Positions 30,339 through 35,451 of a DNA stretch of 64,000 bases are shown in pieces. Location: NCBI RefSeq assembly GCF_000384035.1, contig NZ_KB913024.1, positions 3,063,228-3,127,227 on the forward strand, read 5' to 3'. This stretch comes from Actinopolyspora mortivallis DSM 44261 (lineage in GTDB: Bacteria > Actinomycetota > Actinomycetes > Mycobacteriales > Pseudonocardiaceae). The position numbers and the translations under genes were made by a program. Each line of letters begins with the position of its first letter. The first letter of the stretch is position 1. The notes beneath the pieces are model-generated. The model made no database searches and was not told the DNA's origin. It saw nothing but the letters and a program-made list of their open reading frames with translations.

Positions 30339-30367
30339 GATACGCGAGGGGGAGGTGCTCGCCTCCA

Positions 30368-30568
30368 CTAGAGAACGAGTGCTTCCCACACCTTGCCCTG
30401 AGCACTGGCCCCTTCCAGCCTCCATGGTGCTGGGCCAGTTTTCGATAAAAGCTGGCATCCTGATTGACCCACAATCCGGCGGACATACGGGGCAACATCT
30501 TCCGCCTCGAACAGATGATGAACCTGAAAGATATATTCACTCCTGCTTGCTAAATCCTCGTCAAACAA
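30368..30568 (-). CDS. Short ORF directly downstream of the SAVED-mCpol gene
   Basis: A 66-codon reading frame with a TTG start at 30568, 23 bases after the end of the SAVED-mCpol gene on the same strand. The predicted peptide opens MFDEDLASRSEYIFQVHH and continues with LLSKTGPAPWRLEGAS. I recognise no family, and no clear ribosome binding site precedes it. An in-frame ATG-initiated peptide in another frame (MKYIIV, then stop) lies just before it, so it could also be a decayed fragment. A hairpin with TTTT at 30404-30442 falls inside it, which weakens the case. Its only support is position and orientation. Confidence 0.3.
   Translation of the reverse strand: MFDEDLASRSEYIFQVHHLFEAEDVAPYVRRIVGQSGCQLLSKTGPAPWRLEGASAQGKVWEALVL
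30404..30442 (+). terminator. Possible terminator of hisN
   Basis: ACTGGCCC (30404-30411) and GGGCCAGT (30432-30439) form an 8-bp stem followed by TTTT. It lies about 65 bases beyond the hisN stop and may end its transcript before the island. Confidence 0.45.
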
Positions 30569-30591
30569 TAATATATTTCATATTTTCCACA

Positions 30592-32112
30592 TCAATAAAT
30601 TCCAACGCTGATATTTTTCCCGGACGTCTTGGCGACTCGCAAAGAATTAAAAGCCTCCCTGGAATCAGTTCCATATCCACACGAAACCCGAAAACCCGTA
30701 TCCATTCTGAGAATATCGAGAAACTCCAAAAACTCAGAAAGAGAACTGCTTCTCAATGAGAATATGGCACTGTCCCCACCCTTTGAAACAAGAGAAACGC
30801 CAGACAAATTCTGCATTTTCTCAACAATATCACGCAGCGATTGATCAGCTTTTTTGCTCCACATGACAGCATTATCCAAATCCCGGGAAAGAAGACTTCT
30901 CTCCGTTTGTTCCCCCACGTCGTCACCGTCGACAATGGCAACTATTTCATTCCCCGTCCAACGAGAATATTCGACGTAACTTTGAGAGTAGCGAACAATC
31001 CTGCTACCATCAGGAAAATACGCTCCAGCAGCGAAAGCGAATACAGAAGGTATATTAGTAAAAAGTCGCACTGGAACATCCCTACGACCGTGAAGACGCG
31101 CGTTGTACTCCTGACATTTATGCAACACCTCACAGATAGTCGACTCCGCTTCTCCGTTTACTAGTTTTTCGAAGAAACAATTCGCATTAATGCTGAAAAA
31201 TACCGCCTGGTCGCACTTGTCCTCTTCCATCACCATATAACCATTGTTGGCCACTCCCGCAGAAGCCAGAACCGCCCCGTCACGAAAAGCATTCGCACTT
31301 CCTTCTACAGATTCGACATGAAGGATAACAGCCAATTGAGACTTTTCAAGCGAAGGGAGTCCATTATCTTCCCTCTTCTTTTTCAGGTCAATACTTTCGA
31401 AACGATGACGACAACAGTCTTGACCCAATTCGCGGTATTTTTCGGAAAAAATTTTCCTCAAATTTAGCTCGTATATGCGCTCCCTACCTCCATAGACCGT
31501 GAAAGAACGAACACGAAAGTCGATGCTCAAAGGATAAGGAGGGTGCTCATATCCTTCTTCGCGGATAGAATTCTCCTTCCAGAGAACCGCTGCTCTCTGT
31601 CCAACAGCGAATGCTTCCGGAAGACGACTGTGTATATAGAGGAACAGAGGTTCGTCCTCTTGATTTTTAATTTGCGCTTCATTGATACGGTGTTCAATAG
31701 TGTTAATCACCCAACGCGCTCGCTTATATTCTGAACCCATCAACTTGTCAGGTCCGTAGATAAACCAGTCCCGATGGGAACGATTCATCGCCTTCCGCAC
31801 CGACGAAGGAAGCGATGACTCTTTCTTACCATCATTTTTTGATGGCAGACTAATATAGATACCAACTCCGTACTTCCGTTTGTTCTTGTACCAGAGCACG
31901 ACCGCGACTATCCCCATAAGAATCCATATCGACACAAGTCCCCAGATTCCAAAATTATCTGCGAGGTTGGGACCAGCTCCGGCCACGAAAGCAACAGAAA
32001 ACCAGAAGGCGAAGGATTCAAAATCCACCATCCAGTACCGAAATCGAAACACTTTTGAGTTCCTCAATATTTCCCACCTAGAAAAACATGTTTTCCATAG
32101 CTTCACATTCAC
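30592..32112 (-). CDS. Two-helix membrane protein with SAVED-like sensor fused to mCpol (minimal CRISPR polymerase-like) domain
   Basis: A 506-residue protein coded by AT-rich DNA (25/60 to 27/60 G+C in three counted lines). Two membrane helices lie at about 31-48 and 54-75. Residues about 155-386 look like SAVED, a double-CARF cyclic-oligonucleotide sensor: each half has a P-x(1-2)-AFA-type turn (LPEAFAVG, 164-171; IPSVFAFAAG, 354-363), the second inside VPVRLFTNIPSVFAF. Residues about 388-506 read like the Cas10/GGDEF-type Palm of mCpol: VAIVDGDDVG (394-400 metal site), VSKGGDSAIF (GGDS at 445-448) and FRVSCGYGTDSREAFNSL then AKTSGKN. Synthase, sensor and membrane effector are therefore apparently in one chain. 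GTG 32112 has no clear ribosome binding site; ATG 32031 (MVDFESF) is an alternative start. An antiphage role is inferred. Confidence 0.8.
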   Translation of the reverse strand: MNVKLWKTCFSRWEILRNSKVFRFRYWMVDFESFAFWFSVAFVAGAGPNLADNFGIWGLVSIWILMGIVAVVLWYKNKRKYGVGIYISLPSKNDGKKESSLPSSVRKAMNRSHRDWFIYGPDKLMGSEYKRARWVINTIEHRINEAQIKNQEDEPLFLYIHSRLPEAFAVGQRAAVLWKENSIREEGYEHPPYPLSIDFRVRSFTVYGGRERIYELNLRKIFSEKYRELGQDCCRHRFESIDLKKKREDNGLPSLEKSQLAVILHVESVEGSANAFRDGAVLASAGVANNGYMVMEEDKCDQAVFFSINANCFFEKLVNGEAESTICEVLHKCQEYNARLHGRRDVPVRLFTNIPSVFAFAAGAYFPDGSRIVRYSQSYVEYSRWTGNEIVAIVDGDDVGEQTERSLLSRDLDNAVMWSKKADQSLRDIVEKMQNLSGVSLVSKGGDSAIFSLRSSSLSEFLEFLDILRMDTGFRVSCGYGTDSREAFNSLRVAKTSGKNISVGIY

Positions 32113-32272
32113 TCGCGCAGGAAACGCGAAGACTGAGCACCGAGATCATCTCATAATTTCTCGTTATGAAACAGTCCAGGTTATCCGTCATACTGTCGCA
32201 AGCATTCAAACATGGGCCATCCGTGTGGATCGAGGCGCTCGGCTCCACAGACGAAAAACATGATTCACATTC
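32081..32272. repeat. Short direct repeats and palindrome at the 5' end of the SAVED-mCpol gene
   Basis: GAAAAACATG occurs at 32081-32090 and 32253-32262, each followed by TTCACATTC (32102-32110 and 32264-32272). The first copy overlaps the 12-base palindrome AAAACATGTTTT (32083-32094). The repeats straddle the GTG start and may be remnants of duplication or binding sites. Confidence 0.4.
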
Positions 32273-32537
32273 TCGTGACACTACCGCACTGCACAAAGAA
32301 CACATGCACGCTAAAACACCCTCAGAGACAACAAGGTGACTAAGAACGATCCAAAGAAACCACCCGACGGATCCACTCACTCCTATCGGCGAAGGAGCTC
32401 GGAGACGTATGTGATGCAGAGATCCACAAACGGCCATATCCAAGAAATCTGCGCACGAGTTGCGCATGAGGGAACGCCTCGCCTGGAGCAGGAACCGGCG
32501 ACCGGTACGGACACGACCGGGGCTCGGGAGAGCCCGC
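32113..32537. promoter_or_regulatory. Gap upstream of the SAVED-mCpol gene
   Basis: 425 bases between the SAVED-mCpol gene and the T7SS immunity gene. AT-rich up to about 32420, then switching to ordinary high GC by about 32470, which marks the island edge. It should hold the minus-strand promoter of the SAVED-mCpol gene. A 57-codon plus-strand frame (32166-32339) has no ribosome binding site and no recognisable family. Confidence 0.4.
32520..32535 (-). terminator. Stem-loop after the T7SS toxin operon
   Basis: GGGCTC (32520-32525), loop GGGA and GAGCCC (32530-32535): a 6-bp stem just beyond the stop of the last operon gene (32538). Probable operon end; no T-run. Confidence 0.45.
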
Positions 32538-32975
32538 TCAGCCGCCCGCCTTTTCCCGCTCGGCGCCGGAGGCCGGTGGCCCCCCGGCCTCACCACCCGG
32601 TGCGGGAGTTCCGGTGGGTGGACTTCCGGCGGTGTTGCCCACAGCGGGAACGTCCCCGGTGGCCTCGGCCGCACCCTCGGACACCGGAATCCCCCGGGGC
32701 GGGGTGCTTCCGGTGTCGAGCGGGCCCACCACACCGCGCAGTGCCTGGGTCCAGGTCAGCCGCCCGAACAGATAGAAACAGGCGACCTGCTCGGAGGTGA
32801 ACCGGGCCCAGTCGTAGCGGTTGCCCTGCTCCCTCCAGAACACGTCCCAGACCGGCTGCCCCTCGGACTCCCCACGCAGCAGACACCACGCGTCGTCCGC
32901 CTCCGCGCCCAGCGAGACCACCCGCGCGGGAACGCCCATCGCCTCCAGCCATCCGGCAACGGACTCGGTGTTCAT
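32538..32975 (-). CDS. Probable immunity protein for the TNT toxin
   Basis: A 145-residue acidic, cytoplasmic protein whose ATG (32975) overlaps the toxin stop by 4 bases. Its folded part is about 85 residues: MNTESVAGWLEAMGV, then DDAWCLLRGESEG, VWDVFWREQGNRYDW and SEQVACFYLFGRLTW. A Pro/Gly-rich disordered tail of 60 residues follows. I do not recognise a named family. The position directly behind a NAD+-cleaving TNT toxin gene with translational coupling is the standard place for the cognate immunity gene, like IFT behind the mycobacterial toxin CpnT. The role is inferred from position, not sequence. Confidence 0.6.
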   Translation of the reverse strand: MNTESVAGWLEAMGVPARVVSLGAEADDAWCLLRGESEGQPVWDVFWREQGNRYDWARFTSEQVACFYLFGRLTWTQALRGVVGPLDTGSTPPRGIPVSEGAAEATGDVPAVGNTAGSPPTGTPAPGGEAGGPPASGAEREKAGG

Positions 32976-35122
32976 CCAGCCCCCCGATCCGACTCGTCCA
33001 CGGCGTGCTCCTCCTCCGGCACGTGTGCCCGGTCCTCGACGCGGATCCGGAGGGTGTCGCCCTCCGCGTGCCCCACTGCGGGATCCGGCTCCTCCCCGTC
33101 GAGTTCGGCCAGCAGGCCGCAGGCGAGCAGTTCGACGACAGGGTGCGTGGCACGGTAACGCACCCCCGCGCCGGGCTGTTCGAACCAGCCCACGGAAAGC
33201 ACCCGCCACACCGGCAACGGAGCCACCACCCGGTAGCGCCGGTAGTCGCGACGCGTGAACTCGGGGGGAAGCGAACGCCGGGCGAAGAGCGTGCCCTCCG
33301 GAGCCAACACCCTGCCGTACTCGTCCCCGATGCGGTCGAGCGTGGTTCCCGGTTCCAGCACGAGCGGAACCGCCTCGTCCGAACCGTTCTCCGGGAAACC
33401 GTGCCGGGCGGGCCAGTCGTACGATACCGGTGTCCCCTCGGGAACGGGCGGCAGGTACCGCAGCTCCCACTCGTACTCGCTCAGTCCCGGGTCCACACCG
33501 AACGGTTCGTAGCCCTCCAGCAGTTCCTCCGGAACCCCGGCCTCGGAGGCGGTTCCGCGCCCCGGCCGCGTCCGGCCGCCACGTGCGGAGAACATCGCCC
33601 GCCGGACCAGGTCCTCCCTCGGATGGTCCCCGACAGGGAAGCACGGCGGTCGCTGCTCGCGCTGTTCGGGGACAGCGGACCACTGTCTGTTCGGACGCTG
33701 GTGGGCCACCGGCATGTGTCCGATGGGGAACTGGTGCAGCACGAAGGCGACCACGGCGGACTCCCGCTCGTTGTCCCGCAGCGGACGCTGCCCGCCCCCC
33801 TGCTGCGACGCGGGCGGCGGCTGGGGACCGCCCGCCACCGGGGGTCCGGCGTACGGCCCGGCGCCCCCGCCGTGTGCGGGATGCGCGGTACCCGGTGGGA
33901 AACCGCGTGGGGGCTGCGGAGGGCCTGCCACCACTCCCGGTGGGAAGGGAACACGTCCTCCCCCCGGTGCCGCCCCGGTCACGCCGGGTTGCGGGCGTGC
34001 GGGACCACCCGCGTACGGCTGGTTCGGCGGAGGAGGGGGCGGTGCCTGCTGCCCGGGTTGGGCGGGTGCTCCGCCGCCCACCACGGGGCCACCGGCGCGA
34101 GGCGCGGGGGCGGCCTCGGAGCCCTGGGGCGCGGCCCACGCCTGGTGCATCGCGCCGGGCGTGGTCCGCGGATCCCCTCCGGAGGGGACATCCTCTCGGC
34201 CGCCGGGGGTGGGAATCGGTCCCGTGTCGGGATCTGCTTCGTCCCTCCCCTGTTCGGCCGCCCGCACGGTCTCCGGCGCCACCGGCCCCGTCGCCTCCCG
34301 AGCGGGAGCCTCCGGCTGCTCCCCGGACGTGGACCCGGGATCGGCCGCCTCGGCCGGAGTGGCAGGGGGCTGGTCGTCCCCCACGGGAAGCGGCCGGAGT
34401 CCGGCCTCCTCTGTCACGGACTGGGAGGGCACCTCGGACGAGACTCCGGCGGCTTCCCCCACCGTCCGTACGACTCCCTCCCCGGCGGGCCGATCTCCCC
34501 CTGCCGACAGGGGGTCTTCGGCCTCGTCCCGAACCGTCTCGACAATCCCCGGATCCGGAGCACCGGCGTCGGCCCCCGCCCGTCCGGACACCGGCGAGTC
34601 CACCGCCTCCACCGTCACCCCGCCGTCACGGTCCACCGCACGGACCAGGGTGTGGTTGAGTTCGGCGACGTTGGTGGCCGTGGCGTCGGTGAGCGCCCGC
34701 ACCTCCGCATCGACTCCCGGTCCCGCCGCCGTGTTCTCGGCGACGTCGAGTTGCTTGGCCAACGCGACCAGCTCCCGCACGATCCGGAGCTTGGCCGCAC
34801 CCACCTGTCCCGCCGCGTGTTCCAGGCGGTCCGCCGCGGCGGTGCACTCACGCACGCACACCGGCAGACGGCCGGAGTCCGGGTCCACGAAACCGTCCCA
34901 CTCCCGGCGGGCCGCCCGACTCGCCTCCCCCTCGAAGGCGGCCAGGGCCCGCTGGGCGGAGGCGTCCGAGGCCCGCGCCAGCGCCGCCAGTGACTCGGCC
35001 GCCGTGCGCCAGGCACGGGCGGCCTCCCGCATGGCGTCCTCGTCGGCCTCCGGCCAGTGCGTTCCGGTGCGCTCGGCGACCTCGCGCAGTTCGGGGGGCA
35101 GTTCGATCCCCAACCGACTCAC
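32972..35122 (-). CDS. T7SS-type polymorphic toxin with C-terminal TNT (NAD+ glycohydrolase) domain
   Basis: A 716-residue protein starting at GTG 35122, overlapping the WXG-like gene by 4 bases. The first about 170 residues are a helical secretion domain (GIELPPELREVAERTG, AWRTAAESLAALARASD). A long Pro/Gly-rich linker with many PPP and GGP runs spans about 200-490. The C-terminal about 115 residues match the tuberculosis necrotizing toxin fold: ARHGFPENGSDE, LVLEPGTTLDRIGDEYG, LFARRSLPPEF, YRRYRVVAPLPV and GWFEQPGAGVRY, the last holding the conserved Gln near the NAD site. TNT domains hydrolyse NAD+ and kill target cells. The protein is probably exported by a type VII system encoded elsewhere. 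Confidence 0.87.
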   Translation of the reverse strand: MSRLGIELPPELREVAERTGTHWPEADEDAMREAARAWRTAAESLAALARASDASAQRALAAFEGEASRAARREWDGFVDPDSGRLPVCVRECTAAADRLEHAAGQVGAAKLRIVRELVALAKQLDVAENTAAGPGVDAEVRALTDATATNVAELNHTLVRAVDRDGGVTVEAVDSPVSGRAGADAGAPDPGIVETVRDEAEDPLSAGGDRPAGEGVVRTVGEAAGVSSEVPSQSVTEEAGLRPLPVGDDQPPATPAEAADPGSTSGEQPEAPAREATGPVAPETVRAAEQGRDEADPDTGPIPTPGGREDVPSGGDPRTTPGAMHQAWAAPQGSEAAPAPRAGGPVVGGGAPAQPGQQAPPPPPPNQPYAGGPARPQPGVTGAAPGGGRVPFPPGVVAGPPQPPRGFPPGTAHPAHGGGAGPYAGPPVAGGPQPPPASQQGGGQRPLRDNERESAVVAFVLHQFPIGHMPVAHQRPNRQWSAVPEQREQRPPCFPVGDHPREDLVRRAMFSARGGRTRPGRGTASEAGVPEELLEGYEPFGVDPGLSEYEWELRYLPPVPEGTPVSYDWPARHGFPENGSDEAVPLVLEPGTTLDRIGDEYGRVLAPEGTLFARRSLPPEFTRRDYRRYRVVAPLPVWRVLSVGWFEQPGAGVRYRATHPVVELLACGLLAELDGEEPDPAVGHAEGDTLRIRVEDRAHVPEEEHAVDESDRGAG

Positions 35123-35451
35123 TCCCGTCCCCGCTGAGCCCCGTCCACGGCCCGCAACCCGGCCGAGGCGTCCTCGTCGGCCCGGTCGTACTCCCCGGCG
35201 GTGTGGGCGAACTTCCCGCCCAGCGCACCGAGCCGTTCGGACAGTTCGTCCACAGTGTCCAGAGCACGTCGCGTCCCGGGGAGGTGGAGCTCGGCGAACC
35301 GGGTGCCCGCCTCGTCGGTTCCCCAACAGTCCCCGGTCCGTTCGAGCGCCTCGCGCAGTTCGGCCGCGATCCCGCGCGCGGTCGCCGCGTGTTCCTCGAA
35401 GGCCCCGGACTGCTCCGTGAGCCGCCGGAGATCGCCACGGAATCCGTTCAT
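35119..35451 (-). CDS. WXG100-like T7SS partner protein
   Basis: A 110-residue helical-hairpin protein from ATG 35451. Two long helices are separated by the turn TGDCWGTDEAGTRFAE, where W-G takes the place of the W-x-G motif. The size and the order (after YbaB-like, before toxin) fit an Esx-like partner that pairs with the N-terminal helices of the toxin for secretion. The stop overlaps the toxin's GTG (GTGA), showing coupled translation. Confidence 0.75.
   Translation of the reverse strand: MNGFRGDLRRLTEQSGAFEEHAATARGIAAELREALERTGDCWGTDEAGTRFAELHLPGTRRALDTVDELSERLGALGGKFAHTAGEYDRADEDASAGLRAVDGAQRGRE

Follow-up and report, generated by a model that had tools for sequence, protein, structure and literature searches.

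The locus described here raises the question whether a single gene may hold all the parts of a nucleotide-signalling defence and, if so, whether the nucleotide restrains or activates the membrane part. The DNA analyzed, hereafter the window, is a stretch of 64,000 nucleotides from Actinopolyspora mortivallis DSM 44261 (contig NZ_KB913024.1, positions 3,063,228 to 3,127,227 of the forward strand). One gene on its minus strand codes for a protein in which two predicted transmembrane (TM) helices, a SAVED sensor domain and a C-terminal mCpol domain (minimal CRISPR polymerase, a Cas10-like Palm) follow one another. The presence of the three parts in one chain, proposed in an earlier note, is supported for mCpol by its sequence match and, for this domain as well as SAVED, by two fold models; the structure prediction suggested there as a check recovered both folds. 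The preferred interpretation, given a probability of about one half, is that of a single-gene, self-contained nucleotide-signalling defence, in which a Panoptes-like logic would operate within one chain, the membrane part being restrained by the protein's own nucleotide.

The frame first reported includes 506 codons, from a GTG at 32112 to a stop ending at 30592, and its residue numbering is used throughout. Translation probably begins at a TTG at 32067 (residue 16), to give a protein of 491 amino acids (30592..32067, minus strand). This start is preferred because a predicted ribosome-binding site, AGGTGGG, lies just upstream (32073..32079, minus strand), the alignment of the relatives to the window protein begins at about residue 17, and TTG is also found at the equivalent position in Actinopolyspora righensis. 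All the motifs quoted in the earlier note were located in the 506-residue translation (LPEAFAVG, 164-171; IPSVFAFAAG, 354-363; VDGDDVG, 394-400; KGGDS, 444-448; AKTSGKN, 494-500). Judging from the Pfam mCpol match (E=6.7e-19) and from full-length homologues in seven other genomes, 33-64% identical, the frame is not a chance one. No site was found by promoter scan between the fusion gene and its upstream neighbour.

The mCpol domain spans residues 389-506 (30595..30948, minus strand) according to the fold model, in line with the Palm-like C-terminal domain initially assumed. The match to PF18182 (68.8 bits vs. a cut-off of 26.4 in the window protein) is above cut-off in all eight genomes carrying the gene; the NCBIfam mCpol model stays marginally below it in the window protein (39.4 vs. 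40). An OptS-type Palm fold is present in the predicted model, and OptS was matched in a profile search of PDB sequences. Residues D395 (codon at 30928..30930, minus strand) and D447, within KGGDS (30772..30774, minus strand), align to OptS Asp6 and Asp57, indicated as the putative active site in the available part of PMC12657218. Both are invariant in 8/8 members, as are D397, GGDSAIF and GKN. In the accessible part of PMC12657230, the D57A change abolishes the OptS product, residues S30 and N34 are reported to confer ATP selectivity, and mCpol standing alone is said to be active constitutively and to need no RNA binding. S30 aligns to the invariant S419, N34 to the variable D423. The alignment suggests that the mCpol part likely synthesizes a cyclic nucleotide, and that, D423 being variable, the product may differ from that of OptS. 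mCpol is also the best conserved portion of the protein, mean identity to the window protein being 0.51, vs. 0.41 for the N-terminal part and 0.35 for the sensor.

The SAVED domain corresponds to residues 79-381 (30970..31878, minus strand) in the fold model. The assignment rests on predicted fold, as the curated sequence models remain below cut-off: NCBIfam SAVED scored 12.6 bits vs. a cut-off of 33 in the window protein, and reached E<=1 in 7/8 members (best 4.8e-4), Pfam SAVED matched 1/8 members (E 0.026), and the profile search of PDB sequences found no SAVED protein. The duplicated CARF-like region initially described as starting at residue 155 may thus be retained as a SAVED fold, its beginning moved to about residue 79. 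LPEAFAVG and IPSVFAFAAG each sit between a strand and a helix in the model.

Two membrane helices are likely at residues 31-50 and 56-77 (31882..32022, minus strand), as suggested by model helices and hydropathy. Their position fits the interval 31-75 given at first, at low model confidence (predicted local distance difference test score, pLDDT, of 55-70 in blocks of residues 31-80). In Kyte-Doolittle plots (19 residues), the second helix exceeds 1.5 in 7/8 members, the first in 5/8, the window protein not being among the latter. The PADLOC model PDLC01176 ('CorA-like', 310 positions) matches 4/8 members. In the Saccharopolyspora flava relative (L016) it covers residues 45-345, hence nearly the whole 2TM and SAVED part (E=8.6e-5), and in the G190 relative residues 127-347 (E=4.3e-6); it is weak in the others, and does not match the window protein at E<=10. 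PDLC01176 may represent, by this alignment, a form devoid of mCpol. The same alignment to the helix-plus-sensor part suggests that 2TM-SAVED-like proteins are filed under the CorA label.

The fusion protein was found in 8/297 genomes of the host's family, with identical domain order in all. Besides the host, the named carriers are A. righensis, Saccharopolyspora rosea, S. flava, Lentzea sp. NEAU-D7 and Streptoalloteichus tenebrarius. A single-sequence search of genome contigs detected no relative, an alignment-based search five loci; no fusion relatives were detected in plasmids, phages and viral contigs. In the family, PF18182 matches are confined to the eight carriers, and therefore every mCpol found in the family sample is fused this way. 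In wider samples PF18182 matched the host only (1/394 genomes of the class, 1/376 of the phylum), and no split form was therefore available for direct comparison.

To look for partners, the open frames of at least 80 residues located within 8 kb at the eight loci were all compared with one another, and no partner gene is common to the loci. The syntenic pair formed by the window and A. righensis shares 45 matching frame pairs; elsewhere, five matches were found in four locus pairs, and four of these matches read as generic (two MFS-like, one TetR-like, one dehydrogenase-like). The single chain appears to contain all that nucleotide signalling requires, with no partner travelling along. The fifth match is between L014:11879-13219, which contains pentapeptide repeats, and L040:4661-5890 (35% identity over 274 amino acids); the two loci belong to different genera, and the shared protein may be there by chance or be an accessory one.

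The gene was probably acquired from elsewhere. Its GC content is 45% in a window of 70%, and is below that of the flanks in 8/8 loci; among the seven other members the gap is smallest in S. flava (3 points) and reaches up to 27 points in A. righensis. It resides in a low-GC interval of 2,199 bp (30339..32537), bordered on one side by an inositol-monophosphatase-like gene and on the other by a small gene. The former is present in 10/10 Actinopolyspora genomes, the fusion gene in two, and the same interval measures 15, 112 and 116 bp in three congeners. In A. righensis the gene occupies the same site in the same orientation, amid additional genes; the DNA match between the two species (68%) is limited to approximately 30601-32092 of the window, that is, to the fusion gene itself. 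At this chromosomal site the fusion gene is gained and lost by itself. Six other frames (66-218 amino acids) lie in, or reach into, the insert of the window; none of them has a Pfam match at E<=0.01.

In four congeners the same interval houses Cas10 along with RAMP-family or Cmr3 type III CRISPR genes, and Cas10 is above cut-off in the congeners G038, G117, G134 and G177; the remaining one, G165, has neither mCpol nor Cas10 matches. The Cas10-like proteins found at the site (L041:9865-11259, L042:1262-2656, L043:11722-13137, L044:3877-5292) are short, 464-471 amino acids, and match the Pfam second-Palm model only. What lies beside the inositol-monophosphatase-like gene differs within the genus (L031-L035, L041-L045), the interval being nearly empty, or filled by the mCpol fusion, by type III CRISPR genes, or by XRE-like and unknown genes.

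Neighbourhoods vary in the other carriers. In Lentzea an exact 54-bp repeat occurs once on either side of the gene, one copy overlapping a tRNA-Lys gene, and the locus, which includes an integrase-like frame recognized by eye, resembles an integrated element. In G190 the fusion gene comes after a tRNA-Thr gene and an integrase. In S. flava a Cmr2/Cas10 frame is found 175 bp downstream of the fusion gene, and 23 CRISPR-type repeats 2.6-7.7 kb away on the opposite side. Nearby genes include one for an Mrr-type endonuclease and a frame that is Vsr-like (below Pfam cut-off) in S. rosea, a Schlafen-type helicase and an HNH nuclease in S. tenebrarius; no defence gene was recognized in G043, where one neighbour was scanned. 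Patchy presence, low GC content, a site in common with type III CRISPR genes, and, in some relatives, neighbourhoods of the element or CRISPR type indirectly support a defence role.

Membrane effectors of the TM-SAVED type (Cap14) belonging to cyclic oligonucleotide-based antiphage signalling systems (CBASS) rely on a signal made by a separate CD-NTase. Like the 3TM-SAVED proteins (9wq2, 9wq3), they combine, by name, membrane helices with SAVED, and lack mCpol. Panoptes systems (OptS mCpol plus OptE S-2TM-beta) share with the fusion the mCpol fold, the catalytic aspartates and a two-helix membrane effector part. In contrast, they are made up of two genes (the optSE operon) and feature a beta-barrel sensor, rather than one chain with SAVED. 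Closer still are the mCpol operons with separate 2TM-CARF or 2TM-SAVED genes reported in the available part of PMC12657218, in which the same three kinds of domains are encoded by separate genes, whereas one polypeptide is found here in 8/8 members; the same paper also describes mCpol joined to HEPN and 2TM domains, either through operons or by fusion. CARF_HEPN_mCpol (PADLOC PDLC01967), which matches the mCpol part of the window protein, consists by name of sensor, effector and mCpol, a HEPN RNase replacing the membrane helices and CARF replacing SAVED. Cap1, a type III-A membrane effector, has a comparable layout (a short N-terminal part, then two helices, a nucleotide-binding domain and a C-terminal domain), but, as reported in the available part of PMC12642688, is a CARF-like tetramer activated by Cas10-made cyclic tetra-adenylate (cA4), and ends with DUF4579, not with a cyclase. 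The claim of novelty holds in part: the single-chain 2TM-SAVED-mCpol was not found in the literature searched, including the accessible part of PMC12657218, where Extended Data Fig. 9d possibly contains an earlier drawing, but separate mCpol/2TM-SAVED operons have been published, and CARF_HEPN_mCpol is in PADLOC.

In the favoured mechanism, the C-terminal mCpol would constantly make a cyclic nucleotide from nucleoside triphosphates, and the SAVED domain of the same oligomer would bind it, the nucleotide-bound state keeping the two membrane helices inactive. Removal of the nucleotide by a phage sponge or nuclease would let the helices assemble or open; the membrane would fail, and the infected cell stop growing. 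The inhibitory sign of the signal is suggested by analogy: since the Panoptes mCpol is constitutive and its product restrains the effector, an mCpol fused into the chain would hold the SAVED domain there in the ligand-bound state and the helices at rest. In Panoptes the effector is released by phage sponges and, according to the part of PMC12657230 at hand, also by phosphodiesterases. The specific proposal of a decoy-nucleotide defence in one polypeptide, bringing together synthase, sensor and membrane killer, with SAVED switched from ligand-activated to ligand-restrained, is put forward tentatively, at somewhat less than even odds. If the nucleotide does restrain, ligand would be shown to act on SAVED in either sense, and the toxin would come linked, in fixed 1:1 amounts, to the source of its small-molecule antitoxin, a compact defence moving as a single gene.

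Several points weigh against this mechanism. The trigger is described in the available part of PMC12657218 as the sponge Acb2, and not the nuclease Acb1. The ligand-inhibited sign has been shown, in the sources at hand, only for the beta-barrel effector OptE/2TM-beta, whereas type III CARF and CBASS TM effectors are described as ligand-activated (PMC12642688, available part). Tethering of synthase and sensor may shield the signal from a sponge. A guarded pathway, moreover, is not visible: Panoptes is coupled to CBASS, yet SMODS, the one CD-NTase model used in the search for such partners, matched 0/8 carriers vs. 32/297 genomes of the family, a result also likely by chance. Nor is Cas10 enriched, being above cut-off in 1/8 carriers (G063) vs. 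36/297 genomes, and below it in the carrier G224; the host genome has neither Cas10 nor SMODS matches. Guarding of CBASS or of type III CRISPR was considered as a function, and co-occurrence gave it no support.

An opposite sign of the signal is less likely, and is the first alternative to be weighed. The mCpol would be off, or slow, until infection, when changes in nucleoside triphosphate pools, a phage protein, or oligomerization on the membrane might trigger it; its product would bind SAVED, and SAVED stacking would open or assemble the helices, in the manner of the TM-SAVED effectors of CBASS or of the CARF membrane effectors of type III systems. Structures that by title are ligand-bound or activated filaments of CalpL, SAVED-CHAT and 3TM-SAVED are found among the fold matches, and Cap1, a 2TM-CARF-like effector, opens a pore on cA4 (PMC12642688, part available). 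However, no phage-sensing subunit or domain was recognized with the fusion gene and, standalone mCpol being constitutive (PMC12657230, part available), an always-on activator in the same chain would be lethal. The sign of the mCpol nucleotide for effectors beyond OptE is left open in section 12 of PMC12657218, within the part available, a gap that argues against taking restraint for granted and on which the fusion protein bears. The three parts being in one protein, one catalytic point mutant should reveal the sign, toxic if the nucleotide restrains, harmless if it activates.

It is improbable that SAVED listens to the messenger of another system, type III CRISPR or CBASS, mCpol amplifying or counteracting it. 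The Cmr2/Cas10 frame and CRISPR-type repeats next to the S. flava gene, and the type III genes at the same site in congeners, would fit such a role, but the counts of Cas10 and SMODS in the carriers, and the host genome, do not. Still less probable is that SAVED acts as a ring nuclease clearing the mCpol product, a timer instead of a sensor. A ring nuclease of SAVED type from a virus (9r8s) heads the Foldseek matches, and CalpL, the SAVED of which is a ring nuclease according to a reference title in the accessible part of PMC13148439, is the SAVED match of highest Z; yet Cap4 and others tie with it, the match is one of fold, and the membrane helices would be left without a clear role. A catalytically inactive or housekeeping signalling protein, with no role in defence, is the least probable reading. 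The empty searches of plasmids, phages and viral contigs would suit it, but the catalytic residues are invariant, only 8/297 genomes carry the gene, and its GC content is below that of the surroundings in 8/8 loci, at an insertion site also used by CRISPR genes.

Near the insert, at 32972-35326 of the window (minus strand), a WXG100-like protein is encoded that ends in a TNT domain ('Tuberculosis necrotizing toxin' in Pfam, E=2.1e-27), kept in the A. righensis and G165 copies.
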